NCBI RefSeq assembly: GCF_019649055.1
Contig: NW_026570291.1
Location: forward strand, 1 to 64,000
From: Paramacrobiotus metropolitanus
Taxonomy: Eukaryota > Tardigrada > Eutardigrada > Parachela > Macrobiotidae
Direction: 5' to 3'
DNA length: 64,000 bases
The notes beneath the pieces were generated by a model. That model saw only the letters and a list, made by a program, of their open reading frames with translations, searched no databases and was not told the origin of the DNA. Each line of letters starts with the position of its first letter. The stretch's first letter is position 1. Positions 1,898-25,923 of this stretch are shown here, one piece after another. Both the position numbers and the translations under genes were made by a program.

Positions 1898-1910
1898 GCT
1901 CCAATAGAGC
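1898..1910 (+). repeat. CAATA-loop stem-loop, stem GCTC/GAGC
   Basis: GCTC-CAATA-GAGC, 4-bp stem, in the extended Gag-like frame just before its ATG. Confidence 0.75.
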
Positions 1911-1921
1911 CACCACCGAAG

Positions 1922-3751
1922 ATGGCCGGTCGAGATAACCCGTACGAACGGAAGTTTGACCAAGGCTACGCCCGACGTGACAATGCAGGCGGGTACACCT
2001 TCCGTCATGCAGGCCCGGGTAACGACCCTCACTCGTCGAACTCCAACCGATCGAGTAAGTCCGGCAAATCCAACCAATCGACCAAATCAGCCAAGGAGAA
2101 GCGAGATACGCGGATCCTTGCGGACGACTTCACCCAATCGCCGGAGGATAGCTTCGAGGACGCACACGACCGGACGTTCCTCGAGCTACCACAGGCTGAG
2201 CCGGAGGTTCTGCATGACCGAATAGGTCAAACTGCGAACTCCGAGCCTGCGGCTGGACTTGTGCACCCAATAGGTGCCTCGCCAGTCTTCTTCCAGGCCA
2301 TCACCCCGGACCATGGAGCCTCGAGCCCGGTGCTAAGTAGCTCCGAGGTGTCACCGGACATGGGTGACCCTGTGCAGCCCCAACATGGCAGCATGGCTGG
2401 ACTGAAACCGAGGCAAGGCCAGATGAGCCCGAGCCAAACGAAGGGTACGGTACCACCGACCCGGGGGGTGACCCACAAGGCGGGTTCACCGACTAAGTCC
2501 CCACCGACCCTGGCTCAAAGCCCCAAACCAACGGGCAACAACCCAAAATTGACGTCGCCGGACCCGAAACGACCCTCGGGGACTCCGAAGGCGACCACAC
2601 CGGACCCGAGGACCCTCACCGGGACTTCAAGTCGGACTTCAAACTCATCGAAGCCGACCTCGGAGACATCCAAATCTTCAACGGGAAGGTTGCAGTCGGC
2701 TAGAACCTCGAACACCGAGGCTCGAGCCTCGGACGTCGAGGCTCGGACCCCTAACACCGGGGCCCGAACTCCGACCCAACGGGTTGGAACACCCAAGACC
2801 CGGCCGGCAACCCCCACTTCCTCGGCTAAGAAAGCCGTTTCCCCGGTCAAATTCCGGATTTCGTCGGTTGCAACCTCCACGGGCGAGGTTGAGGGTTCGG
2901 TTACCGAGGTTAACTTAACCTCGGCTGGCGGACCGTCATCCCCGAAACCCAAAACCCCCGGTAGTGAACCTACTCCAACCCGAGCCAGCCGGATCGAAGC
3001 CTCACAAGCCGCACGTAAGTCGAAATCGGCTTCACCGAAGGTTGCAAAACCAACCCCGGACCTTCCGGCCACACCACCGATGTTCGAACCCCCGAACCTC
3101 GGGGCTGAAAAGACTCCATCACCGACCGACGACGTCTTCGACGCAACGGTGTTACCCAATAAGGTGACCGAGCGTTCGGACAGCAGAAAGGGCTTCAGGT
3201 TTCCGTCACCGAAGCAACATCCAGGCTCACACATCGGAGCCTCGGACTACACACCTCGGCGGTACCTGACAAAGACCCCTCCGGAGAAGATCGGCAACCC
3301 ACAGGTCCTCCGTAAACGGATATACGAGCTGCAAAACCATCTCTTGGCCGGACAGAGCATCGTCGAATCGACGGAGAATGTTTTGTCCCAGACGGTAGCA
3401 TCGCGTGAGCAGGAGCGCAAGAGGCTCACTGACGAACTCGAACGTGCGAACACCGTCATTGATGACCTAACTCAAGAGATCGAACGGTTAGAGGCCCAGT
3501 TGCAAGTAACTGAGGAGCCCTGCCGTCATGAACAGGCCGAAGTCACCAGGCTCCAGGACATGCTGGAGCAGTCTCGGGCCGAAGTGGCCACCCTGCGCGA
3601 ATACTTGGAGCAGCGGCTACTGGCCCTCGGCTACTCCGAGGCCGGCTCGGCGGAAGTCCATAAGATGTTCGACCGGGTGGACGAGTACCGCGAGGAGAAC
3701 CATCACCTCAACAGGGCATTATCGGCCTGGAGGGGGAGATCGACGAACTAA
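1922..3751 (+). CDS. Gag-like ORF, N-terminal part (low complexity plus coiled coil)
   Basis: An open frame of about 610 codons from an ATG with good context (A at -3, G at +4). The frame is also open upstream to about 1796, without another ATG. The first 480 residues are rich in Ser, Thr, Pro and Lys. The last 150 (nt about 3280-3740) have the heptad look of a long coiled coil, rich in Glu, Arg, Leu and Gln. The frame ends in a TAA at 3749-3751. The coiled coil continues without loss of pattern in the next frame (-1) from about 3712, so a 1-nt deletion at about 3690-3712 has split a longer protein. It stands first in the element, before the capsid-like part, as Gag proteins do. No specific family recognised for this part. 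Confidence 0.7.
   Translation: MAGRDNPYERKFDQGYARRDNAGGYTFRHAGPGNDPHSSNSNRSSKSGKSNQSTKSAKEKRDTRILADDFTQSPEDSFEDAHDRTFLELPQAEPEVLHDRIGQTANSEPAAGLVHPIGASPVFFQAITPDHGASSPVLSSSEVSPDMGDPVQPQHGSMAGLKPRQGQMSPSQTKGTVPPTRGVTHKAGSPTKSPPTLAQSPKPTGNNPKLTSPDPKRPSGTPKATTPDPRTLTGTSSRTSNSSKPTSETSKSSTGRLQSARTSNTEARASDVEARTPNTGARTPTQRVGTPKTRPATPTSSAKKAVSPVKFRISSVATSTGEVEGSVTEVNLTSAGGPSSPKPKTPGSEPTPTRASRIEASQAARKSKSASPKVAKPTPDLPATPPMFEPPNLGAEKTPSPTDDVFDATVLPNKVTERSDSRKGFRFPSPKQHPGSHIGASDYTPRRYLTKTPPEKIGNPQVLRKRIYELQNHLLAGQSIVESTENVLSQTVASREQERKRLTDELERANTVIDDLTQEIERLEAQLQVTEEPCRHEQAEVTRLQDMLEQSRAEVATLREYLEQRLLALGYSEAGSAEVHKMFDRVDEYREENHHLNRALSAWRGRSTN
2216..2228 (+). repeat. Variant stem-loop, loop GAATA, stem GACC/GGTC
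   Basis: GACC-GAATA-GGTC, one loop base differs from the family form. It lies inside the Gag-like frame. Confidence 0.6.
2263..2277 (+). repeat. CAATA-loop stem-loop, stem GCACC/GGTGC
   Basis: 5-bp perfect stem around CAATA, inside the Gag-like frame, 34 nt after the preceding variant. Confidence 0.8.
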
Positions 3752-4812
3752 ATTCGGAACTCGACTTCCTCCGGACGGCCTACGCGAACCTCCGAGAGAA
3801 CCAGAATGACCCGGAGGGTACATCCGTAGACCTTCGGCTATGCCAGGCCCAACTTGGCCAGCAGATCCTCGCCCTCACCACCCATCTCCAGAACGAGACA
3901 GCCCGGTTCGAACAGGCTCGCGTTGAGAATCTCGCAGTCATCGAGGCTTAACGATCCCGCATCACACAGCTAGAGTCCGAGAAGACCCAACTGCAGATAG
4001 ACCAGGACCGTCTCCTAAAGTACCAACAGGAACTCTACGACTTCACCACGGATGTAACCAACAAGTACACCGGCCTGTGCGACAAGTACAATCAGCTGGC
4101 CCAGGAACGAGAAGACTTGGGCATCGAAGTCGCGTGCCTGAAGGAGGAAAAGACCTACCTCGAGGACTCCATAACCGAACAACCCCCGTCCTACCGGACT
4201 ACCCAAGAGCAGGACAAACGTCAGCAGATTGATGACTACCTGCGTCGAGACAACCCCTTGCTGAACCCAACAGGTCAAACGGGGGCTCTCGAGAGTCAAA
4301 TCTACCAGGTTGGAATGCTTAGGAACGAACCTTCGGTTGGACCCATACCGAGGCCGCCGTTGGTACCGACAGCCCCGGAGCCGGAACGAAACACTTCGAC
4401 GGCTACCCCCAATGCACCGACCCAGTCAACCACCACAACGACCACGGCCTACGGAGGAACATCTACAACAACGATGTTCTCAACCGGAACAAGGCCCGTA
4501 GCATCGACCTCAACCGGACAGGACGACCCCCGAGCCTCGAACCCTCAAGGCCCGGACCCCCGAGGCTCGAACCCCCGAGCCCCGGTAAACGGATCTGGCA
4601 TGGGACTCCGACCGCCGACGAACGTTTCGACGGGAGGCTCACAGCCTAATTCGGGGAATTCCAACCGGGACCGACAACGTTCGGGCTCCCAGAACACGTA
4701 CCCGCCGAGGATCGAAGTTCAAACTGTATCGGCGGGGCAGCGCAATTGGGCTGACCCGGTACGCCCCGGTTATCCGGATAACGCACCACAGCAGCCTCGG
4801 CCAGACAACTGT

Positions 4813-4825
4813 GACCCAATAGGTC
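4813..4825 (+). repeat. CAATA-loop stem-loop, stem GACC/GGTC
   Basis: 4-bp stem around CAATA in the Pro-rich Gag region. A second site near 4884 has the same loop and a 3-bp stem. Confidence 0.75.
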
Positions 4826-6819
4826 CGGTTGGCCCCGGCGCTGTTGGCAACGGACCCTATCAGCCTCGGCAAGGCAACATGAACCCAATAGGTCCGGTGC
4901 CCCAGGCCGACCAATATGTGGTTATACCACCGGGGATGTGGCTTGACCACAACAGAGTCCTTCAGAGGATGCCAGGGTATGTGGCACCGAACCAACCGCC
5001 GAACCAAGGGTATGGAGCGCAGAATCCCCCGCCCGGACCTGGACAGCCCCAGCCGGCACCCCCTGGTAACCCATACCCTCAACCCCAACCACAGCCCTAC
5101 CCACCTCAACCCGCCCCGGCTGCGCAGCAAGCGGCCTACCCGGTGGCTTGGAACCCTCCGGTAGCCCAACAGGCAATGCCGGTGGTCCAACCCCGTCAAA
5201 CCCCACCACCCGATGAGCAAGACAATGCTCAAGCCCGACAGGAAGGCTACGAGGAAGGCCGGCGCCGATACGAAGAACGGAATAACCGGATCTTGGCTCG
5301 GAAAAATCGGGCAGAGTTGCCGAAGTTCAACGGCGACGGGGCCAAGGTGGAAGGCTGGATCACAAAGATCCGGCGAATCTATCGCTCGGAGGCTGACGGC
5401 GTCGCAATGACAGACGTAGCCTTCATGACGGAGCTGGAGGGCGCCCTAACTGGACAAGCCCTGGAGTGGTACCAGAACCAGTCAACTCTGGAACCTGAAG
5501 AAAACGGATGGACCGTCGACTACTGGCTGCAGCAATTTGCGGCCCGGTTCATGGACCCAGACAAACAGGTCACGGCAGTCGCGGACATCACTACCAGAAA
5601 GTACATGCTGGGGCAAGAGACCCCCGAGCAGTACTATGACGCCATCATAAACCTCAAGCAACGAGGCAACCTCACCGACGAACTGGCAGTCTTCTACCTG
5701 CGGACGAATGTCACGGAGCCAATCCTTCGGGCAGCTCTGGACGTCCGGATGCCGAAGACGACGCGTGAGTTCCGGGACTACGCACGGGACTTCACCCGGG
5801 GCAAGCCGATGTATCAGGTAGTTAAAGGTGGCAATTCCACCAACTACATCACCGTCAGGACGGCGACTCCCGTTCCTGTGACCCAACCGGCTCCCGGATA
5901 CATCCAACCTAACTCGCCAGGTTACCAGAATGTGCAACCGGGGCTTCACCGACAGAGCCCTCCGGCGACACCACCTCCTCAGGCCCGTGGTCAGATCGAA
6001 CAGACTTGGGCGGCAATGGCGGCGATGAACCTGAATGGTGCCCCAACAGGGACCATGGTCACGCCGCCTGCCTATGGGAACAGTGGCCAACCGAGCTAGC
6101 CTCGGAGCCCTGGCTACGGCCAACCCCAGGGCCAGGGTTACTTCGGCTATGGCCAGCCCCAACAGGGCTACAGCCAGCCTCGGAGCCCCGGCTACGGCCA
6201 GCCCCAACAGGGCTACGGCCAGAACTCCGGCTACGGCCAACCTCAGAACCAGGGGTATGGCTTCGGAAGTGGATATGGACGCGGTGGAGCCCCACAATAT
6301 GGTGGCTCCGGCGGAAGACGTGGCGGCGGGAATCGCGGCCGCGGAATCTTCGGCAACCGCGCGTTTGGAGGCGGCCAGCCTCAGAACGTGCAACGGCAGC
6401 CTCGGACACCACAGCAAGAGGCTTGCCAGCAGGCAACCTACGTTGATCGGATGGAAGCTAAGTTCTTCCAGTGGACCCAGGACGGAATATTTTCCTGCGG
6501 TCACTGCCTATGGGGCAACCACAACCAAGCGAGTTGTGGCTATGCCAACCTCCGGCTGGAAGACAACCCGAACCGGAGATGGTACCTGGACTGGAGGTAC
6601 CGGTACGATAATGGATGGCCATTAGGTTCGGCGAATCAGAACTACCCGAACATCGTACCACCCCCGCGCCCCCGTCAGCAGAATGCCGGCGGATTCGGCG
6701 GCCAAGGCAGCCCTAACCGGCAGCCTGGCCAAGGAAATGGAGGGAACCCACAGAATGGTGGTCGACCCCCATTGGCAACCCCGCCATCAGCCCAACCGCC
6801 GCAACTGCCGCCGTCCCCG

Positions 6820-6834
6820 GCCCCCAATAGGGGC
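6820..6834 (+). repeat. CAATA-loop stem-loop, stem GCCCC/GGGGC
   Basis: 5-bp perfect stem around CAATA, 51 nt upstream of the frameshift heptamer. Confidence 0.8.
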
Positions 6835-6884
6835 TCGGGCGGATACCAACCGGTAGTTGGCGGGCCTGTCCCGGGTACATCCCA

Positions 6885-6952: not shown

Positions 6953-7640
6953 TAAGGATAACCCCACTAACCGGAACAACCCTTTGGACACAACTCGGAA
7001 CCTCAACGAGGACTTGGCCTCCGCAACGGTCAGCGAGTCCGCTAGATTCTTAGCGGCGGGGACGGTAGCCCAACTAGGCATCGAACATCCCCGGTTCGGA
7101 TACTCGGAGAATCGACCCAAACCTCGCCACGCCGATAATGCGGCTCCCGGACCAGAACCGGTACCTGGGAGGATCGGCCAAGGAACTTGGATCCGATCGG
7201 CAACCGGGACACAGAACGTGCCCGGACCCCCAGGCCCAGAAGGTGAAGCCGGGGACGTCGGCCGGAGAAACCGGACCCGACCAGCCGGGACGAGAAACGT
7301 CACCAGGCTGCCCGGAAGGCTCATTGCCCAACTAGGCATTACGAGCCACGGGCTAAGCGGAGAATCGGGACGCCGACCCGCAACCTCACAGGACGCCAGA
7401 ATGACGCCTGAACCGTCCTTGGTAGGCCAACCAGGTAGACGGCCGGAGGCTCCGACCGACGAAGTAACGGAGTACTTCGAAGACTGGGAAGCAGTACCTC
7501 TGGAGGCACAGGTACCCGCCTACTGTCTGCAGCAGGAAGCGGACCTCTTCCAGCGACAACCGGCACGAACTGTAACCGGATCGCGTACGTTCTTCAACAT
7601 GCGATATAACCTCTCAACCATATGAGAAGGTCAACCATCC

Positions 7641-8267
7641 ATGGAAGAACGGATAACAAGCCGGATATACCCGGTGGAAACCGCCGAATCGTTGATGGAC
7701 GGAGTAGCTAACCGGCCAGAGGCGAGTCACTCGGTTATGGAAGTTCCATCCGGGCTACCAGGCTCATTAGCCCCGGCAAAACGACTAAGTCCACACCGAC
7801 CCTCGGAAGTCAACCCACAAGATGGAGTAGACCTACCGAAGCTGGACAGGACCTCATTACCACCGCGTGTAGACACCAACGGTGTCCCCGGCGGATCAAC
7901 GACGACCTTAATCCCAGTCGAAGTGACTATTCGGGAAGTAACGATTCAACCGTTACAATCCACCGGACGACCGAAAGTGGTCCGGGAATGGACACATGAA
8001 GTTCAAATTGGACCGGTCACAACCGCGGCCATGCTGGACACCGGAGCCGAAACATCCCTAATAGAGGAGCGTTTCTGCCGGACCAACAACCTTAAACTTG
8101 AATCCCTGGGGTACTTCACCAAAATACTCGGTGTTGGCGGACAAGTCGCCTTCATGGTAACCCATTGTTGCACCGTACCGGCGACCTTGCAAGGGTCCAC
8201 CAGTCCCCATACCTTCCACGTCCAACCTAATAACTCGGACGTTCCTGTACTTCTTGGATGCGACTAA
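7641..8267 (+). CDS. Retropepsin-like aspartic protease segment of Pol
   Basis: The catalytic DTGA motif is encoded at 8037-8048 (MLDTGAETSLI), preceded by a beta-strand-like VQIGPV stretch. The segment ends with PVLLGCD, which matches the C-terminal (V/I)LG.D element of Gypsy proteases, and is cut by TAA 8265-8267 directly after. In full elements the next residues would be a Trp/Phe-Leu pair. Here an LHSKF stretch continues in frame after the stop. The protease matures Gag and Pol inside particles and works as a homodimer. A run of about 110 residues before the domain is unassigned. Confidence 0.85.
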   Translation: MEERITSRIYPVETAESLMDGVANRPEASHSVMEVPSGLPGSLAPAKRLSPHRPSEVNPQDGVDLPKLDRTSLPPRVDTNGVPGGSTTTLIPVEVTIREVTIQPLQSTGRPKVVREWTHEVQIGPVTTAAMLDTGAETSLIEERFCRTNNLKLESLGYFTKILGVGGQVAFMVTHCCTVPATLQGSTSPHTFHVQPNNSDVPVLLGCD

Positions 8268-8342
8268 CTGCATTCCAAGTTTGTCTTCACCCGGGCGCCA
8301 ACGACCCCCAATGAGGGTCAGCGGAACACATCTTCGGGTGTA

Positions 8343-9290: not shown

Positions 9291-9341
9291 CCATCCGCCG
9301 GAACAGCGGAGGAAGGCGAAGCCGACGAGTTTGGAGATTGA

Positions 9342-11360: not shown

Positions 11361-11408
11361 ATTGATGAACTGGAAAACCAGGACCAGCTCGACCATAAAT
11401 CCCCACTG

Positions 11409-13304
11409 TTGGAACATTACCAGATGAGCGGAGGTCTATTGTACCGGTTGACCACCCACAACACTAAGTTGGAACGACGGTTCGTGGTCCCGCTCTTCAT
11501 GCGAAAAGGCATCATCCGAGCACTTCACGACGGAAAAACCGGTAATCACTTCGGCCGCGTGAAGACGTTGGAGGCAGCGAAGCTTCGGTACTACTGGGAC
11601 CGGATGCTATCCGACGTCCATGACTATGTGGATAACTGCCCCCGGTGTACCTTGGTGAACAAGCCCCGGACTAAACCACCCGGTAAACTCCAGAAGATGG
11701 AAGTAGGTGAGCCATGGTTCCGAGTCTACGCGGACTTTAAAGAACCTTTACCTCGGACTGAGTCGAAAGGCTACCAGTACATCGCGGTCGTCACCGACCA
11801 GTTCACCATAGCCCGAGCAACGAAGACTAACTCGGCAAAGGTGTTCGAAAAGTTCTTTGTAGAGGATGTCGTCCTGAAATACGGCATACCGACCCACATT
11901 CACACCGACCAAGGATCTCACTTCACGGCTAAGACCTTCGCCAAAGTAGCTAGAATCTTCGGGATCAAGCATACTTTCGGAACGGCCTACCACCCAGAGG
12001 GTCAAGGCCAAGTCGAGCGTTCCATGCAGACGATCTGGGACGGAATTCGGAAGGAATGCGACGCCAAGGATGGTCACCGATGGCACCGGAACCTACAGTA
12101 CGTAGTGTGCGGAATCAACTGAGCGAAACATGCGACCACCGGGTTCTCACCCTACTACATGCTGTACGGACGTGAGATGACCATACCCCAGGACGTCATC
12201 ACCGGAACCAACGCACCGGAACATTACACCGACAAGGAGCAATACATCAGAAGGATGAAGGAACGGCTCCATAGGGCTCTAGACATTGAGAAGACGAACA
12301 TCGATGAAGCCTTCGAAAAAGCTGCCGAACTCTACAACAAGAAGAAGTCGACACCGGACTTCCAGAAGAGAGACTTAGTCTTGGTAGAGTATCCCAATAA
12401 GGATCCTACCAGGAAGGAACGGTACGACGGAGTATGGACGGTGCTCAACTATAAAGGACCCAACAACCTTTGGCTCCGCAACGTCGAAACCGGAAAGGAA
12501 GATGTTGTCGCCGTGGATAGATGTAAACATCATCCAAGCAACAAGCGTCGGCGGATTACCCGATCTTATGGCCAGAAGAAAGCCGAGGTAACCCCGGGTA
12601 ACAGCCTTGCAACGGTGCCGTACCCCCATGAGGGTCAGCCCGCTCGCAATACCCGGGCCCGAAAGGCTAACTTAGCCGAAGAAGAGCCGAAGGGACCGGC
12701 AAAGGAGCCTCAGAAACCGGACTTAACGTCGGTTCAGGACCCCAATAAGGGTCCGTCCGACAAACCAGGTCCGGAGGAACTTCCTAAACCGAAACCAAAA
12801 CGTGGCCGACCGAGGAAAAAGCCCCCGTCGGACTTCGAGACACCAGCCCTGCAGGAATTGCAGAAGCAGGCTGTGAGAGAGGATGAACCTGAGGCTGTCC
12901 CGGAGAAGCCTGTGGACTTAGCCGGATCATCCGAGGCTAACCCGAAGAAGTCAGTGGACTTAGCCGCAAAACCCGAGGCCGACCCAATTAAGCCTAAGGA
13001 GCCTAAGGCACCGAAAGAGAAGCCGGCAAAACCGAAGAAACCGGTGAAGAAGCGACCCGACACGCCGGTCCCGGCTGTATCAACCAGTATTGCGGTTGAA
13101 CCTCCGGCTCCGAAACGGAAGTACGGGACGGTCAAGAAGCCTAAGTTAACGAGGTACTTGAAGAAGCTCAAGTGGCCGAAGATGAAGCACACAAGGATAT
13201 CCTCGACAGGATCACTGAAGGACGGGCAGAACCGGTCAAATCGACCAAACCCGCAAAGAAGCCCAAAACACCAAAACCCACCACACCACAAACATAGGCC
13301 ATAG
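11409..13304 (+). pseudogene. Integrase with HHCC, D,D(35)E core, GPY/F-like region and AT-hook tail
   Basis: The N-terminal zinc finger is visible as H-x6-H and C-P-R-C (11,526-11,655). Catalytic Asp 11733-11735, Asp 11907-11909 (HTDQGS) and Glu 12015-12017 (GQVER) give 57- and 35-residue gaps, the D,D(35)E spacing. TGA 12120-12122 interrupts just before the conserved GFSPYYMLYGR block. A GPNNLWLRN segment near 12,455 fits the GPY/F region that contacts host chromatin. The tail (12,560-13,304) is very basic and Pro-rich and has an AT-hook core, KRGRPRKK, at about 12,799-12,822, suggesting minor-groove DNA binding. The true end appears to be TAG 13302-13304. Confidence 0.92.
12737..12754 (+). 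repeat. CAATAA-loop stem-loop, stem GGACCC/GGGTCC
   Basis: 6-bp perfect stem with a loop one base longer (CAATAA), in the integrase tail coding region. Confidence 0.8.
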
Positions 13305-13470: not shown

Positions 13471-13797
13471 ATGTCTGACCGACGACGAGACCCTCCATCG
13501 AGCGGATTGAACAGCAGCCGACGCGACACCCGACGAACTCAGCCGTACCCGCACGACCGATCGGGCTCCCGAGCTGAAACGCGTTCGGCCACCCAAACCC
13601 CCATCCCACAGGTAACGAACCCGCATGCGAACATAGCGGCAGATTCTTTGGCAGGTTTAACGGTCGGGTCACGGATGGTCACTCAACCCCGGACGATCCC
13701 CCTCCAGACCTTGCCACCGGGCACTATGCTCGATGAAACCGGACTTTTGGTGAATGTGAGCGCGGCCACCGGTCAGAACGTACCGGCAGTACCGATC

Positions 13798-13810
13798 GAC
13801 CCAATAGGTC
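13798..13810 (+). repeat. CAATA-loop stem-loop in ORF C, stem GACC/GGTC
   Basis: 4-bp stem around CAATA, in the Pro/Met-rich N-terminus of ORF C. Confidence 0.75.
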
Positions 13811-13906
13811 AGATCCGCCCGCCACTTCTACCGGGACCATTCATCCCCGGACCAGTTATGCCACCGACGCTACCCTACATTCCAAATACGGTAACGAGCA
13901 TCCAGC

Positions 13907-13923
13907 CGGCCCCAATAGGGCCG
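13907..13923 (+). repeat. CAATA-loop stem-loop, stem CGGCCC/GGGCCG
   Basis: 6-bp perfect stem around CAATA, 96 nt after the previous one, in ORF C. Confidence 0.85.
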
Positions 13924-14617
13924 CTGATGACTCAAGCCGGGATGAATCCCATGCCGAACCAAATGTTCGCCATGTTCACCCAATGGTGCAACCAGATGGG
14001 TATGAACCAGCCACAAGGCGGCGCGGTCAACCCTCTGATGGGATACCCCATAGTCACTGGACCAATTGGAGCCTCGCAGCAGCCGACTTTACCGGCGGCG
14101 CCACGTCAGGACGGCACAAATATGCCTCCGGTGGTATCAGCGACGGCTCAGCCGGAACGTCAACGGACGCCATCCCCGTCCACTCGATACTACGAGGACG
14201 GAATGAAGGCTTTTTCAGTCCACATGCTGAAACGACCGAAGCCTCCGACATCATCGGCGGAGGCAGCCCCGGCACAATCAACGTCCGGACCCTCGATGGC
14301 CGGACCTTCCACAGCCAGACCTTCGGCAGCCGCAATCACGGTTGAACCGATCTCGGCCACATCCTCGGTCGGATCGCGAAGACAGATCCGACCCTCGGAA
14401 GAACTCACACTGGGTCTTATGGAAGCTGAAAGCGAATGGACCCTCGTCCAGCGCAAGATAGAAGCTCTCAAGTTGAGCGACCCTAACATTGCGCAATAAT
14501 TGACCCGATTGAACTCGGAAATGAAAGTGCTGGAGCAATACATCCAGGATACCCGGGCCGTACTCAAAGCCCGGAAGTCAACCTCCGAGACCCCAGCTTC
14601 GGAGAGAGGGCAAGACC

Positions 14618-17239
14618 CCAACAACCGCAACTACGGGGGCTTCGGCTGGATCGACTAACCCTCCTCCCCACCCTTCACAGACCGAAATAAACGCCCTAAT
14701 CGGACATACCGAAGCCTTAATCGAACAAATGCAGGATCGGAGACTACTCCAGGTTGAAGCCTCGGGCGATAAACCGAGACGCGACCTAAAGAATTGGACC
14801 GATGTTTTGACCATGGGAATTGAAGTACTTCGGAAGTTGGCGGCTCAAACCCCATTAATAGGGGACCAACTCCAGCTACTCCGAGCCTATTACAGGACCT
14901 TAGACTCCCAGATGTGGGAGGCCTCCGATTACTATTGGACCTTGAAAGCCCGACAGTTAACCCCCGGGACTTCAGCCTCGGAAAGAGGGCCAGCCTTAGC
15001 AACCGCAACTACGGGGGCTTCGGCTGGATCGACCAACCCTCCCCCCAACCCCTCGATGACCGAAGTACATGCGTTGCTCGAACACACCGAAGCTCTCGTG
15101 AAACGAATGCGAGAGCAGATACGAGCCGAAGGATTGGAAAACCCGGCGTCCGACCGGACGTGGGTCAGCTCTTTGAACCTCGGAGCCGAAGTACTCCGGA
15201 AACGGTTATCACGGACCCCTCTAACAGAAGAGCAACTGGATCTAATCCACGGTCAATACTGGGTCCTCAAAGCTCTGACCGAAGAGGCTCGAAACGAACA
15301 CCCCCTGGCACCCCCGAGAACGGTGGACAACGTGCCTGGATTGACGAGCCGAGGGACAGAACGGGGATCAGCCGTCGCAACCACAAGTATGGGGGCCTCG
15401 GCTGGAACAACAAGAACCCCGGACACCCGAGAAGCAAGCCCAACACGGCTACAGGTTCACGCAACCTTGAGGGAGGCGGACGACTTAGCGGTGCGACTCA
15501 ACCGTGAGCACCAGGAAACCTTACCGACCGACCCTCGGCACTTGGACCAGGAATTGGCCATCAACCGTATCATCCATGATTCCTACATGCTCCGACGGTC
15601 AATCGAAGTTACTAACTTCACCCCGCAGCAGATTCAGCAGTCCCGGCAAGCATTCCGGAACCTGCGTAGGATCATTGATGATAACCAAAACCCGGCATCA
15701 CCGACCCCACGTGACGTAGCCAAGTCAGATGTGTTCGTGGCTATCCGTAGAACTCGGCAGCAAGGACTTGTGCTTTTAGCGGAACTGCGTCGGCGCCGAG
15801 ACCGGTACCCTTTCGAGTCTGCACAGTGGGCAGAGGCAGGAGCACTCATCATTGAGACCCAATTGAAGCTCGGAGAAATCGAACGCCCTACCCACGACAG
15901 AATCCCAGCAGACGTCCGCGACAGATGGACCCTGGAGGGTGCAGTGGCATACGTGGAGCAACAGATAGCGGCTTTCAACCTAACTGAGGGAGCCGGACCA
16001 GAAGGGCAACAACCAAGCCCCGCTACCCGCCAGGCGTACGACCGAGCCGGAGACAGAAGGGCACTCTGGGAAAGAGTCAACCGAGTGACGAGGCTCAGCG
16101 ACAACGTCATAACGATGTTGATAAGACGCCGTGAACAGGCCTACAGCCTCAACGGACAAGAGGCTGCCCGACGAGTTTCCGACCTAATTACCGAGGTCAA
16201 CCGGGAGTCTGCGGACATTGCAGGTCTCATCTGGGAAGGGATCCCAACAGGACCCTGGGAAACTCGCGAGCTCCCGAGACTCTTATCCTCCATCGAGCGA
16301 CGTGCCGACAGCTACGGCATAGTCCTCTCCGACGACTCATCAAACCGGCCTGATGAAGCTGAAGCCAGACTCTGGAAGTGGCAAGAGATCAGAAAGACCT
16401 TAGAAAAGGGTCACACGCTCCTCTCCACCTTAGAACAAAGAAACAAGTGGGAGGGCAAGCCCTACCTTGACACGGACCGTGAACAAGCCAAGTTCCTGAA
16501 CGACGGGAACAATTTGACGTGTAACCTCCGTCAAGTGGCCAGACTCACCGAGGCTGGAATGCCAACAGCACCGGCCGACATCCGTGAGTTGGATGCGCTA
16601 CTTGGATACCTCGGTAGACGCATCGCCGAAGAAGGCGACCTGGACTCGGATGAATACTCGGAATACAGTCCGAGTCGGAGCCGTAGCCGAGATGGGGAAC
16701 CAACAGTGACCCCCGGCCCTGGCTCACACCGAAGCGTATCACCAATGTCAGAACCTCCGTCACCGATACCCTCACCGGACATCGAGATGTTCGATGACCC
16801 ACCGGAAATGGACTTCGGTATCACTATAACTACCGAAGAATTGAGGAGGGACTTAGCTGAAACCGAGCTAACAGCGGACCTTCTGACCCAGCGGATTGCT
16901 ACGCTGCAACACGGCGATGCGACTCTGCAGACCATCACCGAACAGCGCGACATGGCTCGTGGACATGCCGAGAAACTCCGGAAGAAGTTAGAGGAAAGAA
17001 GCCACAAGGAGGCTCAACCTCGGACCCCCGGGCCTCAACAGGCTAAACCATCGGGGCTTCCTCAACCTCGGACCCCCGGACCCTTGAGGGTCAACCCATC
17101 TGAGCCACCTCAACTCCAACCAGCCCCGACGGAACAGGAGATCCAAGCTCTCCGCGACGACATAGCCCTTAACGAAGGCTATGTCCGGGACTTAGCCGCT
17201 CAGGCTAACCAACTGGAGGATCGGCCCAGAGGAAGCTGA
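14618..17239 (+). CDS. ORF C, part 2: tandem helical modules
   Basis: Open for over 830 codons (ATG 14729; the frame is used from about 14,618). It contains a linker of type ASERG...ATTGASAGST and a helical module of about 85 residues, seen at about 14,690-14,970, 15,060-15,300 and, more diverged, 15,450-15,680. The best match is (H)TEAL(I/V), then EVLRK...TPL...QL. Further helical segments follow, then an acidic SR-like run (16,640-16,700), a coiled coil (16,820-17,010) and Pro-rich repeats. The frame ends in TGA 17237-17239, but coiled-coil sequence goes on in frame 1 from 17,221, so a 1-nt deletion near 17,220 is likely. Function unknown. Confidence 0.7.
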   Translation, partial: PTTATTGASAGSTNPPPHPSQTEINALIGHTEALIEQMQDRRLLQVEASGDKPRRDLKNWTDVLTMGIEVLRKLAAQTPLIGDQLQLLRAYYRTLDSQMWEASDYYWTLKARQLTPGTSASERGPALATATTGASAGSTNPPPNPSMTEVHALLEHTEALVKRMREQIRAEGLENPASDRTWVSSLNLGAEVLRKRLSRTPLTEEQLDLIHGQYWVLKALTEEARNEHPLAPPRTVDNVPGLTSRGTERGSAVATTSMGASAGTTRTPDTREASPTRLQVHATLREADDLAVRLNREHQETLPTDPRHLDQELAINRIIHDSYMLRRSIEVTNFTPQQIQQSRQAFRNLRRIIDDNQNPASPTPRDVAKSDVFVAIRRTRQQGLVLLAELRRRRDRYPFESAQWAEAGALIIETQLKLGEIERPTHDRIPADVRDRWTLEGAVAYVEQQIAAFNLTEGAGPEGQQPSPATRQAYDRAGDRRALWERVNRVTRLSDNVITMLIRRREQAYSLNGQEAARRVSDLITEVNRESADIAGLIWEGIPTGPWETRELPRLLSSIERRADSYGIVLSDDSSNRPDEAEARLWKWQEIRKTLEKGHTLLSTLEQRNKWEGKPYLDTDREQAKFLNDGNNLTCNLRQVARLTEAGMPTAPADIRELDALLGYLGRRIAEEGDLDSDEYSEYSPSRSRSRDGEPTVTPGPGSHRSVSPMSEPPSPIPSPDIEMFDDPPEMDFGITITTEELRRDLAETELTADLLTQRIATLQHGDATLQTITEQRDMARGHAEKLRKKLEERSHKEAQPRTPGPQQAKPSGLPQPRTPGPLRVNPSEPPQLQPAPTEQEIQALRDDIALNEGYVRDLAAQANQLEDRPRGS

Positions 17240-18066
17240 AGGAGCGGATCCAAGACCAACACCGGGTAGCCACAATGGACCTGGAGAGCCTGAAAGCTGA
17301 CTTAGATGTGGCACTTGCAAAAAGGAAGCATGAGGAAGAGAGCCGCAAAACGGTTCCACCTCAGCCTCCGGCCACCCAGCCGACCCAAGCCTCTGCAACC
17401 CAGGCAACTCAGCCTCCGGCTACTCCGCCGACTCAAACCCCCGCAAATCTACCGCAACAACCGGAACGGCCGGTAGCGCCCCAACAGGTCGCACCGACTC
17501 AGCGTCTTTCACCCCGCTCAATGGTGAGGGCGATGGAAAACATATCGGACCCGGGAGTCCTGCCGCCCGATGCTCAACCCTACATAGTTGAAGCCGTGAC
17601 TCGGGCCAATAATATCTTGACTGAGATGCGGACTCGCCGAGGTTTCTGTGACCGTCATAGCGCGGAATTCTTTAAACTGGATGGTGACATCACCGGAGTT
17701 GAAAACCATACCCGGGCAACTCGGATACTTCTACACCCGGAAACCCCGAAACACCAGTACAGCCAGGCTCAGCTGCAATCATGCGTGCTCTGGTTATCGG
17801 GCTTCATCCGGGATTACGAAGAAGAAAGACGAGCCAGAGAACGGCGAGAGGCAGACCGAGCCTCCAAGGATCAGTCTCGGATTCGGCAGATCGAACCCCC
17901 AGAGCAGGGTACATGTGACCAATCAACCCGGAGACCGACCATTAAGCCACCTTCGACGGCTACTACACCGTCAGGAAATTGGCCACTGGCAGTACCCGGA
18001 ATGAAGGAAACCATTCGGCGAGCACTTCAGCGAGCCGAGGATGCCAGCCACGAGATGCATGCTTAA
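17221..18066 (+). CDS. ORF C, part 3: coiled coil and Pro/Gln linker
   Basis: This continues part 2 after the frameshift. It begins with a Lys/Glu/Arg coiled coil (17,221-17,350), then a Pro/Gln/Ala-rich run, then a helical domain of about 150 residues with many charged residues. TAA 18064-18066 breaks it. The same frame opens directly into the next part, with no frame change, so the stop is a point mutation and not a gene end. No family recognised. Confidence 0.65.
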   Translation, partial: SAQRKLKERIQDQHRVATMDLESLKADLDVALAKRKHEEESRKTVPPQPPATQPTQASATQATQPPATPPTQTPANLPQQPERPVAPQQVAPTQRLSPRSMVRAMENISDPGVLPPDAQPYIVEAVTRANNILTEMRTRRGFCDRHSAEFFKLDGDITGVENHTRATRILLHPETPKHQYSQAQLQSCVLWLSGFIRDYEEERRARERREADRASKDQSRIRQIEPPEQGTCDQSTRRPTIKPPSTATTPSGNWPLAVPGMKETIRRALQRAEDASHEMHA

Positions 18067-21000
18067 CTGCATGCCATGAACGCCTGGGACCCTAGGGCGG
18101 CAAGGCTCGACGTTGACACCAACACTTTGGATACGAGCCGGAAGACCATTGCTACCATACTTACCCTATCGGCAGCGAGATCTTCGGACACTGAGGAGAC
18201 CCTAATACAGGCGCTGCAAGACATTAAGCGGATCACCGAGGGTTACTATCGTAACAAGCGACGTGAAGCTGCGGAGCGTAAGGCCCAAAAGGCTAAGCCA
18301 CCTGCTGGACCAGTCACGCCGCCCGGTGAACCCATGGATGTTCCACCCTTAGAAGGCGAAGAACAGAACCTCGAACCCTCCACAGCGGAACGGGAAGCTT
18401 ATGCTCGGACACGGGACTTAACCCCGGACCCACCGAGTACGAGTAAGGCACCGAGGCCAACGACGTTGCCGGTACCCCCAATAGGCGGTTCGGTTCGGCC
18501 AAAACGAACGGAACAGGTGCTCGTCATCCGACGTCCGACAGAACAGTCCGATGACCCGGAGAGAACCCCGGATGGTAGGGCTATTCATCAGCCTGGGGGC
18601 CCAGATTCGCCTAAGTTCGCGAGGAAGCCTCGGTCTAAGGACAGGGATGAGGACAGAGGCCCGAAACGGAAGCTGTTCTCATCACCACCGAGACAAGTCC
18701 GGACCCTCGAACAGGTCCGAGAGATTGTGATGCGGGAAACAACTTCAGACCCATCGAAGCCCCGTCAAAAGGTACGACCGACGCCGGGTGAGAGCCACAA
18801 GACGGCCCCCCAGCCTTATTTAGTACTGCGGGCGATCCAACCGGACTTAACCGCAACGGAACGGGAAGCCTTAGCCTACCACAACCAACTGGTGGACCAG
18901 GTGAAGCAGGCTGAATTCTACCGGATCATCCAAGAAGGTGAACTCACCGGTGGACAACTTGAAATGAAAATGTCGTCAAGAGATCGGAACCGCATAACCC
19001 AGAAGATCCTAGACTTCGCGGCCGATCGTGACACCATCATACGAAGACTTATGGCCGTCCGGAGCGGCATGCAGGTACTTCGGACACAGAAGTTACCGAG
19101 GGTGGTTTTGGACTATGTCCAGCTGTTACGGAACCCGAGGATCAACCCGGCCGTATACATCCCCGAACCACCCCTGGAGGAAGGCCAACCTAGAATCGAC
19201 CTCATTCCGGAAATCGACCCCGACAACTCGGGAGGTAACGATGATGACCCTAACGTCTACGGCGCGGAGGATAGCGAAGAGGAGCGACAGTGGCAACAAG
19301 CCCTGTTAAACGACCTTCGGTCAACATCAAGGCTCTCGACCGAGCCTCGGTCAACTAGTGGAAGAAGCAGGTCTCCGGTGAAGCAGGTGTCTCCAACTAG
19401 GGCTCTGTCTCAACCGAACCGGTTACCCAGTATGACCCCTATTCAGCCTCCGCCACCGAGGTTTTCTCCGAAACGGACCCCTCGGCAAGCCTCCCAAGAA
19501 CGGATGGACACTTCTTCTCCGGCAAAACTGGAGATAGCGGTAAAAGAGCCGGGCATCACAGCATCGATGTCAACCTCGGTGCCAGACATAGCCGCCGAAG
19601 TGACGGTCGAAAGTCAGGTACAACCGGCTGTGCAGCCCCAATTAGGGCCCGCGGTTAGTAACCAGACCCACCGTCAGTACCATGACGACCCGGCCATGGA
19701 CTCCATAAAGGACCTGACCATAACCGAAAGGGACGATTGCATCAATCGGGCCGCGAGCGCGGAGCGTAATTACTATAACGCCCTCAAGAGTCGCCGCGAC
19801 AACTTGCTCGACAACGACTCTAACGAGACTATTCGTGAGTACCATAACCTGACCGAACGGACGAAGGAAATTGTGCAGCAGATGGGCGATGACTATCGGA
19901 AGAAGCGAGCCTCCGGAGAAATTCCGGCACCGCACCCCATCGCACCTTCCCCAATTAGCGGACAAATAGCCTCGAAGGCCACGGTACCCCAAAAGGCGTC
20001 CGTGGTCCCGTCAAAGAGGATGGTTGACCCTAAACGGCAGCCATCAGTAGAGATCGAGGACGAGGAGATGCCGGCATTTAGCGGCTCCGTGGTCCATTCG
20101 GTCAATTCCACTACTGTACGCAAAAAGCGTGAGGCTAATAAGTCGACTTCAAAGAAGGAATCTCCGAACCGACTGCCTAAGAAACCTCGCGGCGGCGGAG
20201 ACACCGATGTCTCGGATGTAGAAGTTCGCCGTAACAAGGGCCGAAGAAAGGTCCAACCCGAGCTACCATCCTCGGATAGCGAACCTGACACAACATCGAG
20301 CCGACAGGAACCCGACAAGAATCGGGGGCCTAGGCCTGAGTTGAAACCCGGCCAAAGTGTCGAAGGTTGGATCAACGAAATCCGGAACTGGGCCGAAGGG
20401 AAGCCTCCAAAAGAGGCACCCAAGGTCAAGAAGGAGAAGAAGGAGTCACAAGGAGACTCCTCGCTTCCACCATTTCTCCAGCGGATGGTTGACAACATCC
20501 AGCAAAGGGACCGGGACTCAGAACGCTCAGTATCCCCGGAGATTGAAATGGAAGAAACTCCAATCAAGCGAAAGCTCAATGAATCGGACCAGCTGGAACC
20601 AGGCTCGGCCAAACATCTAGCCGAGGGTCCCCATGAAGAAATGTGGGACTACCATGCTGACACCGACGAGTCTGATCTGCCAGCCCCGGATAACATCCGT
20701 AACAGGCTGACAGATAGACAACCTGGAGAGCCGGAACCGACCTTCTCCAAGGCGATCTTTAAGGAGGACGTCCGGCGGATTATCACCACAGCTGACACGG
20801 AACGCAGAGACGTCTACCAGGCCCTAGTGGAGAAGCTCACCGAAGAATACCGGGTAGAGCGAGGCAATTTCCTGACCGCACAATTCATGCGGAAGATAGT
20901 CAGCTGGATCCAGGACGAATGTATGGCTTTCATACTCCACCGATCCTGGGACCGAATGGGCGAACTGGTGCTTCCGAAACCACCATCAAAGCTAAGTCAG

Positions 21001-21579
21001 AAGGAAACACCGGAACAGCGGATAGTCAGGGCCATCGGTTATTATCGGAACCCAAGAGGTACCACTCGCCTCCAGATTGCCCGGTTCCTTAATAAGATGT
21101 ACACCTACGGCGATAAACCGAAAGGCGAGGCCGAGATCGAAGACATCATGAGGGAAGTAAACCCCACCCTCGAGGCCATGGTACTACGGAGGGAACTGCA
21201 AACTACTAACGCACAGCGCAGAGTCCACCTTCGGTATACCGTACCAAACTTCATCCCCGAAAAGAACCGGAGGGAGCAGAAGCTTCGGATGTCGTACCTC
21301 CACACGAAGAAGTACGACCCAGAAGGAGCTGAAGTCCAAGTCAGACCGGACGAAGACCCCGCACCTCAGGCCAAAGTATGGCTGGATCTGGCCAGATCAA
21401 CGGCAGCCTCCTCAGGCAGCAGATTCCCTATTGAACGACCAAGAGCCCCGGGCGACTTGCAAAGGTCTGCTTCGGCCGACCATGATCTCAGCGAGGAAGA
21501 CAACCTGCAGATCGTACCTAACCACGACTTTGTTACGACCAAACAACCTGTCTTTCGATCCGAGCAGATTGCTCGATAA
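18067..21579 (+). CDS. ORF C, part 4: large C-terminal part with possible winged-helix domain
   Basis: Open for 1167 codons from ATG 18076, same frame as part 3, ending at TAA 21577-21579. Low-complexity Pro/Ser/Arg/Glu tracts alternate with helical blocks (18,800-19,130 and 19,700-19,910) and several basic, nuclear-signal-like clusters (for example near 20,135 and 20,230). The last folded block (nt about 20,740-21,290) has a pattern RIVRAIGYY...RGTT...IARFLNKMY...L.R.ELQ..., reminiscent of a winged helix such as the linker-histone globular domain. This is a weak similarity judged by eye. The stop lies inside a repeat that recurs 184 bp downstream. The role in the element is unknown; binding nucleic acid is plausible. 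Confidence 0.7.
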   Translation: MHAMNAWDPRAARLDVDTNTLDTSRKTIATILTLSAARSSDTEETLIQALQDIKRITEGYYRNKRREAAERKAQKAKPPAGPVTPPGEPMDVPPLEGEEQNLEPSTAEREAYARTRDLTPDPPSTSKAPRPTTLPVPPIGGSVRPKRTEQVLVIRRPTEQSDDPERTPDGRAIHQPGGPDSPKFARKPRSKDRDEDRGPKRKLFSSPPRQVRTLEQVREIVMRETTSDPSKPRQKVRPTPGESHKTAPQPYLVLRAIQPDLTATEREALAYHNQLVDQVKQAEFYRIIQEGELTGGQLEMKMSSRDRNRITQKILDFAADRDTIIRRLMAVRSGMQVLRTQKLPRVVLDYVQLLRNPRINPAVYIPEPPLEEGQPRIDLIPEIDPDNSGGNDDDPNVYGAEDSEEERQWQQALLNDLRSTSRLSTEPRSTSGRSRSPVKQVSPTRALSQPNRLPSMTPIQPPPPRFSPKRTPRQASQERMDTSSPAKLEIAVKEPGITASMSTSVPDIAAEVTVESQVQPAVQPQLGPAVSNQTHRQYHDDPAMDSIKDLTITERDDCINRAASAERNYYNALKSRRDNLLDNDSNETIREYHNLTERTKEIVQQMGDDYRKKRASGEIPAPHPIAPSPISGQIASKATVPQKASVVPSKRMVDPKRQPSVEIEDEEMPAFSGSVVHSVNSTTVRKKREANKSTSKKESPNRLPKKPRGGGDTDVSDVEVRRNKGRRKVQPELPSSDSEPDTTSSRQEPDKNRGPRPELKPGQSVEGWINEIRNWAEGKPPKEAPKVKKEKKESQGDSSLPPFLQRMVDNIQQRDRDSERSVSPEIEMEETPIKRKLNESDQLEPGSAKHLAEGPHEEMWDYHADTDESDLPAPDNIRNRLTDRQPGEPEPTFSKAIFKEDVRRIITTADTERRDVYQALVEKLTEEYRVERGNFLTAQFMRKIVSWIQDECMAFILHRSWDRMGELVLPKPPSKLSQKETPEQRIVRAIGYYRNPRGTTRLQIARFLNKMYTYGDKPKGEAEIEDIMREVNPTLEAMVLRRELQTTNAQRRVHLRYTVPNFIPEKNRREQKLRMSYLHTKKYDPEGAEVQVRPDEDPAPQAKVWLDLARSTAASSGSRFPIERPRAPGDLQRSASADHDLSEEDNLQIVPNHDFVTTKQPVFRSEQIAR

Positions 21580-21632
21580 CTCACCGGACCCTAAAGGCTC
21601 CGGGGTATGAGGCCCAATAGGCCTCCACCTGC
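21554..21632 (+). repeat. Direct repeat, first copy, spanning the ORF C stop
   Basis: This 79-bp stretch recurs at 21,738-21,816 with about ten differences. It includes TTCGATCCGAGCAGATTG, CCGGACCCTAAAGGCTCCGG and a CAATA stem-loop. A short inverted copy of its start lies near 21,891. Confidence 0.85.
21609..21625 (+). repeat. CAATA-loop stem-loop, stem GAGGCC/GGCCTC
   Basis: 6-bp perfect stem around CAATA, 30 nt after the ORF C stop. The copy in the next direct repeat (near 21,793-21,809) has a base change that breaks one pair. Confidence 0.85.
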
Positions 21633-21737: not shown

Positions 21738-21816
21738 TTCGATCCGAGCAGATTGTCGGATACCTTACCGGACCCTAAAGGCTCCGGGGTTCGAGGTCCA
21801 ATAGGCCTCCACCTGC
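21738..21816 (+). repeat. Direct repeat, second copy
   Basis: Second copy of the 79-bp repeat, offset 184 bp, wholly in the non-coding 3' region. The stem-loop inside has one unpaired position. Confidence 0.85.
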
Positions 21817-21966: not shown

Positions 21967-21981
21967 GAACCCAATAGGTTC
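21967..21981 (+). repeat. CAATA-loop stem-loop, stem GAACC/GGTTC
   Basis: 5-bp perfect stem around CAATA in the non-coding 3' region. A GCC/GGC stem-loop with loop CAGTTA follows at about 21,993. Confidence 0.8.
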
Positions 21982-22163: not shown

Positions 22164-22178
22164 GAACCCAATAGGTTC
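22164..22178 (+). repeat. CAATA-loop stem-loop, second GAACC/GGTTC stem
   Basis: 5-bp perfect stem around CAATA in the 3' region. A short GCC/GGC one with the same loop follows near 22,189. Confidence 0.8.
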
Positions 22179-23074: not shown

Positions 23075-23091
23075 AGAGCCCAATAGGCTCT
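23075..23091 (+). repeat. CAATA-loop stem-loop, stem AGAGCC/GGCTCT
   Basis: 6-bp perfect stem around CAATA in the 3' region. Confidence 0.85.
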
Positions 23092-23457
23092 TACCCCTGA
23101 ATCTTACTAGCCCTGACCTCGTGGACATAGGCAGCGAAAACGTCCTATATCAGCAAGGCCCTGGTGACAGCCTCATCATCGGACCCTTCGCACGTAAGAA
23201 GGTTATCCAGGGGCTCCCAGCATGACTTGCTGGGCACTCCTGTATAAACCCAGCCGGCTGAAGGACCCGGTGGTTACCCCGGACACGGAGGCTGCCCCGG
23301 ATAGCGACTTCATCTTATCGGTGAGACCCTCGGTAGAGTTGCCCAATAGGCGATCTACACCGCGAATAAGGGTTTTGCCGAGATGGAGCGACCATCAGAC
23401 CGAGGCCAACCCACCCTCGGACTTCAACCCTCGAAGTCCGGAACCCACCCTTTCCGA

Positions 23458-23474
23458 GTTACCCAATGGGTAAC
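23458..23474 (+). repeat. Related stem-loop, stem GTTACCC/GGGTAAC, loop AAT
   Basis: 7-bp perfect stem. The core reads CCCAATGGG, so the loop is AAT and not CAATA. Confidence 0.75.
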
Positions 23475-23617: not shown

Positions 23618-23634
23618 GTCACCCAATAGGTGAC
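23618..23634 (+). repeat. CAATA-loop stem-loop, stem GTCACC/GGTGAC
   Basis: 6-bp perfect stem around CAATA in the 3' region. Confidence 0.85.
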
Positions 23635-23930
23635 GGGAGACGAATTTAGGATTTTCAGCCGAGCGGAACGTCATTATACCCACTTAACAGCGCAGCCGAG
23701 GGTACGACCCGGAATCTAACTCGAGTACCGAGGCCCGAGTGCCAATGGACTTAGACTCAGCAACCGAGGCTGAGCTTGGACTCTGATTTCGCAACCGGAG
23801 CTGACCCTCGGTTACCGAGGCTACCATCGGACTTCAGGATCTTGAAGCCAACCGGATACAGGGTCGGACTCGCGCACAGAGACCATGCCATCGACCATTC
23901 AACCCTATGGAAACCAGGCATTAACCGGTC

Positions 23931-23953
23931 CTTGTTGCCCAATAGGCGACAGG
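23931..23953 (+). repeat. CAATA-loop stem-loop with 9-bp stem including two G-T pairs
   Basis: CTTGTTGCC pairs with GGCGACAGG around CAATA. The two non-Watson-Crick positions are both G-T pairs, which fold in RNA. A shorter copy with TTGCC/GGCGA is near 23,340. Confidence 0.8.
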
Positions 23954-24440
23954 ACATAACATAACGGTTTTGCCCGGATCAAACCTCGGATCACTGGACT
24001 TCCCGGAGGATCCACCGATCAATGGGCCCAAAAGGTCTTATACTGCACCCAGAGGGGGTACCTTATGGTATTCGCGAATGCGACAGTGCCTCTCCATCCA
24101 CTTTACCCGATGAACCCCGGCTAGACGTAAGTACGACCCGTCTTACCCGGCTGAGAAGGTTCCGGTTGACCTTTTACCGGAGGATCCCGGTCGGAAAGTG
24201 TGTTTCACGCCCGTTTCACACCCGACAATGGAGATCCATACCTTTTACCCGAAGTCAAAAGGGTCGATCCTTTGACCCTCGAGGGTCGAACCCCCGACCC
24301 TCGGTGAATCGAACCGGTACCATTGGGTATCCCAAGAACCGATGCCTCGGACCTAGATGACCGGACTTCTAGTTGACTGGAGCCCCCGTGAGCGAACGAG
24401 CTCTAGTCGGAATGAGTACCCGGACCAAAGCCCCGGACCA

Positions 24441-25060
24441 AAGACTTTGAGTTTACTTTTTCTAATCTCGAAATGATGTTCTCAATTTTATTGATCTTTT
24501 CATTAACCTGCTCACCAGGAATTGTGATGTTATTTTTACTAGAGAGAGAGAGACAGATGGAATAATACTTTATTTTTTTGCTTTTTCGCCGTTACGGACA
24601 CGACCAACAGACGCCTACACCGGTCCAACAACACCACCGACCGACCTTCGGATTTCGGCCGTGAGTTGTATCGCCACCACGGATCCGGAGGAGAACGCGG
24701 CAGCGAGACACCTTCGTCATCGGACACCACCGAGGCGCAGCCACCGACCCCAATAGGGTCGTGTGCGGAGCGGGCACTGGAGCGGTATGAGGCCGGTCCT
24801 TCGCAGGGGCTCGGACCAGAGGCATGTTGGGCCAGTCGCTATGGCAGCCTACGAGCAGGCAGCCAGCGACAGTCCCGCTTCCGGTGTGCTGACTCACACC
24901 GAGTCGCACTCGCTGTCGAGCGCTAGATCGGCCTTGACTCAGGCAGCTTTCCGCCCAGCCTTACGTCTCGGCCAATCATCGGCCTCGATGTAGGCGGAGC
25001 CACTCCCCACTTCCACATCTCGGCCTACCAGCGTTCGTTCGCTCGTGTTGGATCAGCCCA
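24441..25060. other. AT-rich break (to about 24,600), then a last GC-rich block
   Basis: The first 160 bp are AT-rich host-like sequence with an AGAGAGAGAGAG run near 24,541. From about 24,600 to 25,060 GC-rich sequence returns and carries a CAATA stem-loop, so it is probably a displaced piece of the same retroelement or a relative. Short frames overlap on both strands and show no domain. Confidence 0.5.
24745..24761 (+). repeat. CAATA-loop stem-loop, stem CGACCC/GGGTCG
   Basis: 6-bp perfect stem around CAATA. It lies beyond the AT-rich break at 24,440-24,600, which ties the GC-rich block there to the retroelement. Confidence 0.8.
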
Positions 25061-25326: not shown

Positions 25327-25328
25327 TA

Positions 25329-25921: not shown

Positions 25922-25923
25922 TA

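Follow-up and report, generated by a model that had tools for sequence, protein, structure and literature searches.

What are the small hairpins that recur along one strand of a tardigrade retroelement, and what might read them? The question arises from a 64,000-nucleotide stretch of the Paramacrobiotus metropolitanus genome (RefSeq assembly GCF_019649055.1, contig NW_026570291.1, positions 1 to 64,000 of the forward strand; hereafter the window), the first 25.2 kb of which is a long terminal repeat (LTR) retroelement, Ty3/gypsy-like by its domains. An earlier note, made from the letters of the window, had described thirteen sites at which an invariant CAATA loop is closed by at least four base pairs, and had proposed an RNA-level role, with packaging or Gag-binding signals as one hypothesis. 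On the sequence evidence, it is close to certain that these are conserved sense-strand RNA hairpins, selected for both their loop and their pairing.

One loop on one strand

The window contains 12 CAATA loops with at least four Watson-Crick pairs, all on the plus strand and within 1,898-24,761. The thirteenth site (23,931-23,953) forms only by way of G-U pairs, and once these are permitted the number in positions 1-24,800 rises to 17. The minus strand of the window has no Watson-Crick CAATA hairpin and one weak G-U site (43,743), which lies outside the element, as does one further plus-strand site (60,057, stem taca/tgta). The hairpins catalogued in the element, including two with variant loops, are as follows.

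1838..1852, plus strand: G-U-containing CAATA hairpin inside the first long open reading frame (ORF), gag-like by position
1898..1910, plus strand: CAATA hairpin gctc/gagc, inside the same ORF; outer pair varies GC/AU/GU among copies
2215..2229, plus strand: variant-loop GAATA hairpin tgacc/ggtca; compensatory GC/AU change among copies
2263..2277, plus strand: CAATA hairpin gcacc/ggtgc; other copies read CAATA (13/16) or CAACA (3/16)
4813..4825, plus strand: CAATA hairpin gacc/ggtc, in gag
6820..6834, plus strand: CAATA hairpin gcccc/ggggc, 3' of the zinc knuckle
13798..13810, plus strand: CAATA hairpin gacc/ggtc, in a post-integrase ORF
13907..13923, plus strand: CAATA hairpin cggccc/gggccg
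21609..21625, plus strand: CAATA hairpin gaggcc/ggcctc, opening the 3' noncoding cluster
21793..21809, plus strand: CAATA hairpin gaggtc/ggcctc (G-U)
21967..21981, plus strand: CAATA hairpin gaacc/ggttc
22164..22178, plus strand: CAATA hairpin gaacc/ggttc
23075..23091, plus strand: CAATA hairpin agagcc/ggctct
23338..23354, plus strand: CAATA hairpin gttgcc/ggcgat (G-U)
23458..23474, plus strand: variant-loop CAATG hairpin gttacc/ggtaac
23618..23634, plus strand: CAATA hairpin gtcacc/ggtgac
23931..23953, plus strand: CAATA hairpin with a 9-bp stem including G-U; inner G-C becomes A-U in 5/35 aligned copies
24745..24761, plus strand: CAATA hairpin cgaccc/gggtcg, its end 63 bases short of the 3' LTR; copies vary little

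The number of sites, their restriction to the sense strand and their presence in both coding and noncoding parts (gag, the post-integrase ORF and the 3' noncoding region) agree with the earlier note, and the pattern is larger than that note described. Two of its descriptions need correction. The stems are not all different, since GACC and GAACC occur twice each, and the sites are not dispersed: they cluster in the 3' noncoding region, and from 6,835 to 13,797 no CAATA hairpin with Watson-Crick pairing occurs.

Dinucleotide shuffles of positions 1-24,800 (n = 60) gave a mean of 0.1 CAATA hairpins and a maximum of one, against the 12 observed, and synonymous-codon shuffles of the 14 ORF pieces (n = 500) gave a mean of 0.11 and a maximum of two, against six observed in ORFs. 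Neither kind of result that would have spoken against the sites appeared, antisense copies being absent and compensatory changes present (see below), and chance or base composition was rejected as their source. Among all five-base loops in 1-24,800, CAATA occurs 12 times and the next loops three times each; no shuffle gave any loop more than four times. The bare word CAATA is also skewed between the strands of this stretch (35 sense, 7 antisense), with stems on sense copies only. Several of the coding hairpins encode P-I-G, amino acids that are conserved as well. This motif was rejected as the sole cause on the strength of the synonymous shuffles and of site 6820, which is read in another codon frame (PNR) than the P-I-G sites. 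A known Rfam structure was also rejected, as a covariance-model scan of positions 1-26,000 returned no matches at E<=1.

Loop and stem in other copies of the element

We fetched forty loci, 165 kb in total, from the 3' region in other copies. Each holds at least two Watson-Crick CAATA hairpins, and together they hold 288 in sense and none in antisense orientation, a result on which DNA-level palindromic sites were rejected. When all loops on stems of at least five pairs are ranked without bias in these loci, CAATA comes first (243 hairpins), followed among five-base loops by one with 23, and the complementary loop does not occur. Across the 3', gag and 13-kb pieces of this family (family A) and the window, CAATA sits on 25 distinct five-base stems and CAACA on 10; other loops have at most 11 stems each, barring CCAATAG, a seven-base reading of CAATA sites.

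The stems follow simple rules. Among 414 CAATA or CAACA hairpins, the closing pair is C-G in 378 and the second pair is C-G in 391, and the stem is 4-6 pairs long in 376. The stem freedom described earlier thus holds for the outer pairs, which vary, and fails for the two loop-flanking bases, which are almost invariably CC/GG. As many as 55 contexts dissimilar from one another were found (below 60% ungapped identity, a measure by which indels can inflate the number). In 26 of the 55 dissimilar sites, a further outer helix follows past a small, often asymmetric loop, compared with a mean of 10.2 and a maximum of 17 over 200 partner shuffles.

Copies of about 75% identity mostly retain the hairpins, with compensatory changes in the stems. 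So do gag copies whose flanks are only 70-88% identical, some of them with CAACA or CAATTA loops. At site 1838, 6 of 16 fetched copies have CAATA with five pairs and, in the alignment, several of the others have a six-base CAATTA loop; pairwise rows omit bases inserted in a copy, and in them these CAATTA loops show as CAATA. At site 2215, where the window reads GAATA, the loop is CAATA in 15 of the 16 other copies.

Both arms had been said to change together, and compensatory changes were indeed found among the gag copies and at 13,798. In an alignment of 17 gag sequences, with 27 named pairs and 500 shuffles, 90.2% of cells are paired and 21 cells carry two-sided changes, against 8.7 in the shuffles, none of which reached as high. 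Sliding the partners by 1-3 columns leaves 25-35% pairing and 0-2 double changes. Three of the five covariation measures lie above every shuffle. Pooled over 24 sites, 1,656 of 1,852 cells pair, including 69 with one-sided and 60 with two-sided changes, the pooled and per-site counts taking in only those copies that passed the flank filters. At 13,798, close copies have gacc/ggtc and three diverged copies ggcc/ggcc. Taken together, the sense bias, the invariant loop, the covarying stems and the placement in both coding and noncoding sequence strongly support the RNA-level role that had been proposed.

Word counts over the 170-Mb genome, with the reversed word as control, extend this picture: CCCAATAGG occurs 1,360 times against 710 and GGCCCAATAGGCC 106 times against 11. 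Three elements that make up 1.7% of contig C1 contain 50 of its 57 CCCAATAGG words; the counts are of words rather than checked hairpins, and for the first and the third element the position of one end is an estimate. In the two C1 copies with a mapped 5' LTR, measured from the 5' end, the words fall in gag (1.6-6.5 kb), after the integrase (14.8-19 kb) and, densely, at 21.9-24.8 kb. Pieces flanking the integrase have no hairpins in 18 of 20 loci; the other two hold three hairpins and seem, judging partly by those hairpins, to carry 3'-type sequence.

Sister families with other loops

The C-terminal domain of the last ORF marks many more copies at about 40-50% identity, and from identity bands of this domain we assigned a sample of nine pieces (22.7 kb), family B, to two groups, B1 and B2. 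The nine pieces contain no CAAYA hairpin with at least five pairs. At this stem length, the sense/antisense counts of CAAYA are 259/0 for the 3' loci of family A against 0/0 for the B pieces; those of CAYRNAA are 20/0 for B2 against 0/0 for every A set. A single universal loop for all sampled families was therefore rejected.

In B2, 20 of the 23 seven-base-loop hairpins with at least five pairs have CAYRNAA and none is antisense; shuffles (100 per locus) gave means of 0-0.01. The pattern was formed on loci L108, L110 and L111 (14 of 14) and then tested on L112 and L113 (6 of 9). Genome-wide, the B2 test pattern GACCACANAAGTC has 345 sites against 38 for its reversed control and, among the matches listed, many fall in one-strand clusters, such as six within 2.6 kb at C3:3,021,836-3,024,372. 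The B1 loop is probably ACANA, judging from nine hairpins that represent three sites in three related copies; the B1 piece L109 has no loop class, ACANA included. Loops of the form AGAAM occur in both B2 and B1. At sense offsets 1474-1538 of L110 (B2), five consecutive AGAAM hairpins stand at an exact 16-base spacing on five different stems; L113 has the same five and L112 has three.

The element and its candidate reader

The window holds most of a giant element, other copies of which measure 25-32 kb. The window copy lacks its 5' LTR, as the contig start falls inside the element. In three other copies (contigs C50, C1 and C68), the LTR part alone is found again at a distance of 25-32 kb upstream of the 3' end. 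Its features in the window are listed below.

Holding hairpins 1838..1852 and 1898..1910, plus strand: first long ORF, gag-like by position
6394..6657, plus strand: nucleocapsid-like (NC) domain with a CX2CX4HX4C zinc knuckle, the motif recognised by eye
7626..8267, plus strand: ORF with a retroviral-type aspartic protease domain (PF13975)
11361..12122, plus strand: ORF with integrase zinc-binding and core domains (PF17921, PF00665)
13432..21579, plus strand: post-integrase ORFs in four pieces, without recognised domains; the C-terminal 325 residues have sister-family relatives
21.6-24.8 kb: noncoding stretch of the 3' region
24,825-25,248, plus strand: 3' LTR, 424 bp, with TG...CA ends

The Ty3/gypsy-like hallmarks present are paired LTRs with TG...CA ends (from other copies), protease, integrase and zinc knuckle. 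The 14 ORF pieces scanned in the window copy contain no reverse transcriptase domain, and there is little space for one at 10.4-11.4 kb, between the protease-linker ORF and the integrase; this copy seems to be without one. At least 40 places in the genome match the integrase piece (318 candidates, of which 40 were scored), and five of the seven protein matches of the integrase are from P. metropolitanus, at 45-94% identity, the other two being weak. A search with the gag capsid found one protein only, from the same species, and a protein search with the last ORF found no homolog.

The zinc knuckle is the only RNA-binding-type motif recognised in the element. The 88-amino-acid domain around it was scored at 150 places among 495 candidates in the genome. 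Its four zinc ligands are invariant in all six aligned NC sequences, from family A and several other groups, and the residues between the ligands differ, the domain being 52-57% identical from one family to another. One more family, about 54% identical in the NC domain, has many copies of equal score (contigs C31, C8, C151 and others), and is perhaps young.

The window also holds several repeats. A tandem array with a unit of about 123 bases occupies positions 1-899, at the contig start and in the 5' part of the element. Just past the 3' LTR, a 70-base inverted repeat (25,319-25,388 and 25,862-25,931, 94% complementary) is perhaps a small DNA transposon. At positions 33,000-57,700, interspersed repeats are dense and include many copies of 300 bases as well as long TTCTTAGG-type runs; hairpins of at least five pairs with any of the four loop classes are absent from this part.

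What may read the loops

We infer that the reader is encoded by the element rather than by the host, because sister families in one genome use other loops. In the mechanism that we propose, each hairpin would present the common five-base loop (CAAYA) on a stem that is mostly 4-6 bp long and free in its outer sequence, and an RNA-binding protein of the element, most likely the Gag zinc-knuckle domain, would recognise it. The sites in gag and in the 3' noncoding region would jointly label the full-length RNA of the element itself for packaging or for the assembly of particles, the dense clustering at the 3' end would add avidity, and the other loops of the sister families would lead each Gag to favour its own RNA. 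That the hairpins are sense-strand sites read by the Gag zinc knuckle for genome packaging or assembly is, in our judgement, evenly balanced between true and false. The interpretation in the earlier note is thus supported in part: its packaging or Gag-binding suggestion is still the best hypothesis and gains from the sister-family loops, but the sites gather in gag and towards the 3' end and are not spread over the whole RNA. A fuller loop code, in which families with CAAYA, with CAYRNAA and perhaps with ACANA and AGAAM are each read by a co-evolved Gag knuckle without cross-packaging, is offered tentatively, as a possibility that we lean against.

Several observations weigh against these proposals. 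In the two C1 copies with a mapped 5' LTR, a gap of about 8 kb (6.5-14.8 kb) has no words, and the absence of hairpins between protease and integrase means that the RNA is not spanned. The NC domain has no Pfam match; its structure model is weak (predicted local distance difference test score, pLDDT, 68.5) and matched no solved fold, nor was one matched by sequence. Two of the five gag covariation measures do not beat the shuffles, namely pairs with any double change (94/500) and further pair types (498/500). In the pooled set, 196 of 1,852 cells are unpaired. Of 12 pieces at site 13,798, seven have a CAATA hairpin, one has CAACA and four have none. At some sites the CAATA loop is lost in many rows, being kept in 9 of 17 at site 4817 and 5 of 10 at site 13802, losses that are partly inflated by paralogous stretches also caught by the pooled 24-site script. 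A few stems of at least 12 bp (loci L042 and L057) depart from the short-stem rule. Among sister families, three of the five seven-base-loop hairpins in L112 are off CAYRNAA, and a second class in B2, AGAAM, is not simply explained by one Gag with one knuckle.

Another protein of the element, encoded in the ORFs at 13.4-21.6 kb, might read the loops for RNA export, translation control or localisation, and not for packaging, much like a multi-site Rev/Rev response element or a localisation system of a 3' untranslated region (UTR). We think this unlikely, albeit a serious contender. The element does have 8 kb of unexplained ORFs, its densest sites are in the 3' noncoding region, which all mRNAs terminating in the 3' LTR would carry, and family-specific loops would suit any reader that the element encodes; yet no RNA-binding domain was recognised in those ORFs, while the zinc knuckle of Gag is conserved, and hairpins are also found in gag and in the post-integrase ORF.

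The difference in loop between families of the same host speaks against the idea that a host RNA-binding protein reads them, for escape from decay, localisation or translation, and that the elements multiplied a host site. In favour of this idea, short loop-specific hairpins are the usual targets of cellular readers such as SLBP, IRP and Smaug, and the 3' noncoding cluster looks like a regulatory 3' UTR. The concentration of 50 of the 57 CCCAATAGG words on C1 inside three elements also counts against a host site, and we consider this explanation improbable.

We give an equally small chance to loops that base-pair with another RNA (by kissing, dimerisation or a small RNA) instead of binding protein. 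A fixed loop on a free stem would suit a base-pairing partner as well, and a G in that partner would tolerate the C/U swap at loop position 4. CAAUA is not self-complementary, however, and the sense strand of the 165 kb of copies has no hairpin with the complementary loop, a search that covered hairpin partners and neither unstructured nor host ones. Finally, it is very hard to credit that the hairpins arose as a side effect of neutral duplication, of base composition or of a conserved protein motif like P-I-G: some 3' hairpins do sit inside duplicated blocks and several coding ones encode P-I-G, but compensatory changes, up to 55 dissimilar contexts (a number that indels may inflate), both types of shuffle near 0.1 and one site in another frame oppose it.

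Comparison with known RNA signals

Iron-responsive elements (CAGUGN) and Smaug elements (CNGG) also have a fixed loop on a free stem; their loops differ from those described here, which are element-bound and family-specific. Known retroviral and Ty packaging regions lie mostly near the 5' end and are not known to consist of tens of near-identical loops.

Close parallels come from viruses. Dispersed packaging signals share a loop motif in human parechovirus (GxUxUxxU; PMC5431903) and in hepatitis B virus (RGAG; PMC7612645, PMC6281560). There, as here, many stem-loops per RNA have a common loop and not a common stem; in the viruses these bind the protein that forms the capsid, or have been proposed to do so, a step that is predicted for our element. 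Many copies of one loop on different stems and compensatory stem changes were found here too; a spread across the whole RNA, expected of dispersed packaging signals, was not. The present hairpins belong to animal LTR retroelements, cluster in gag and the 3' noncoding region, and have a stricter loop that differs between sister families. By analogy, they may act like dispersed packaging signals; they lack one usual feature of these, the even spread, and the defining one, binding by the capsid-forming protein, is here a prediction, so that we do not class them as such.

The retroviral psi hairpins bound by Gag NC and the Ty1/Ty3 packaging regions resemble our proposal in that a Gag-derived nucleocapsid recognises its own RNA (here predicted), and differ in that the available portions of the sources describe no repeated hairpins with a conserved loop (PMC4974528, PMC11381356). 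In RNA phages such as MS2 (compare PMC4751978), small coat-operator hairpins along the genome are bound by coat protein. Unlike these, our hairpins show no single-base-bulge rule, have CAAYA or CAYRNAA loops and, at about half of the dissimilar sites (26/55), an outer helix. A literature search, which mostly did not extend to subscription journals, found no report of such hairpins among the matches listed or in passages of PMC8472981, PMC5431903, PMC4974528 and PMC11381356.

How a retroelement Gag selects its own RNA among the transcripts of the cell is an open question. The best-known signals for this selection are complex 5' regions. The putative signal described here is very simple, highly repeated and distinct between sister families of one genome. 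If the proposal is true, the idea of dispersed signals, so far argued for viruses in the portions of the literature available, would extend, on strong evolutionary evidence, to a cellular LTR retroelement, and comparison of loop with knuckle would make its specificity directly addressable in vitro.

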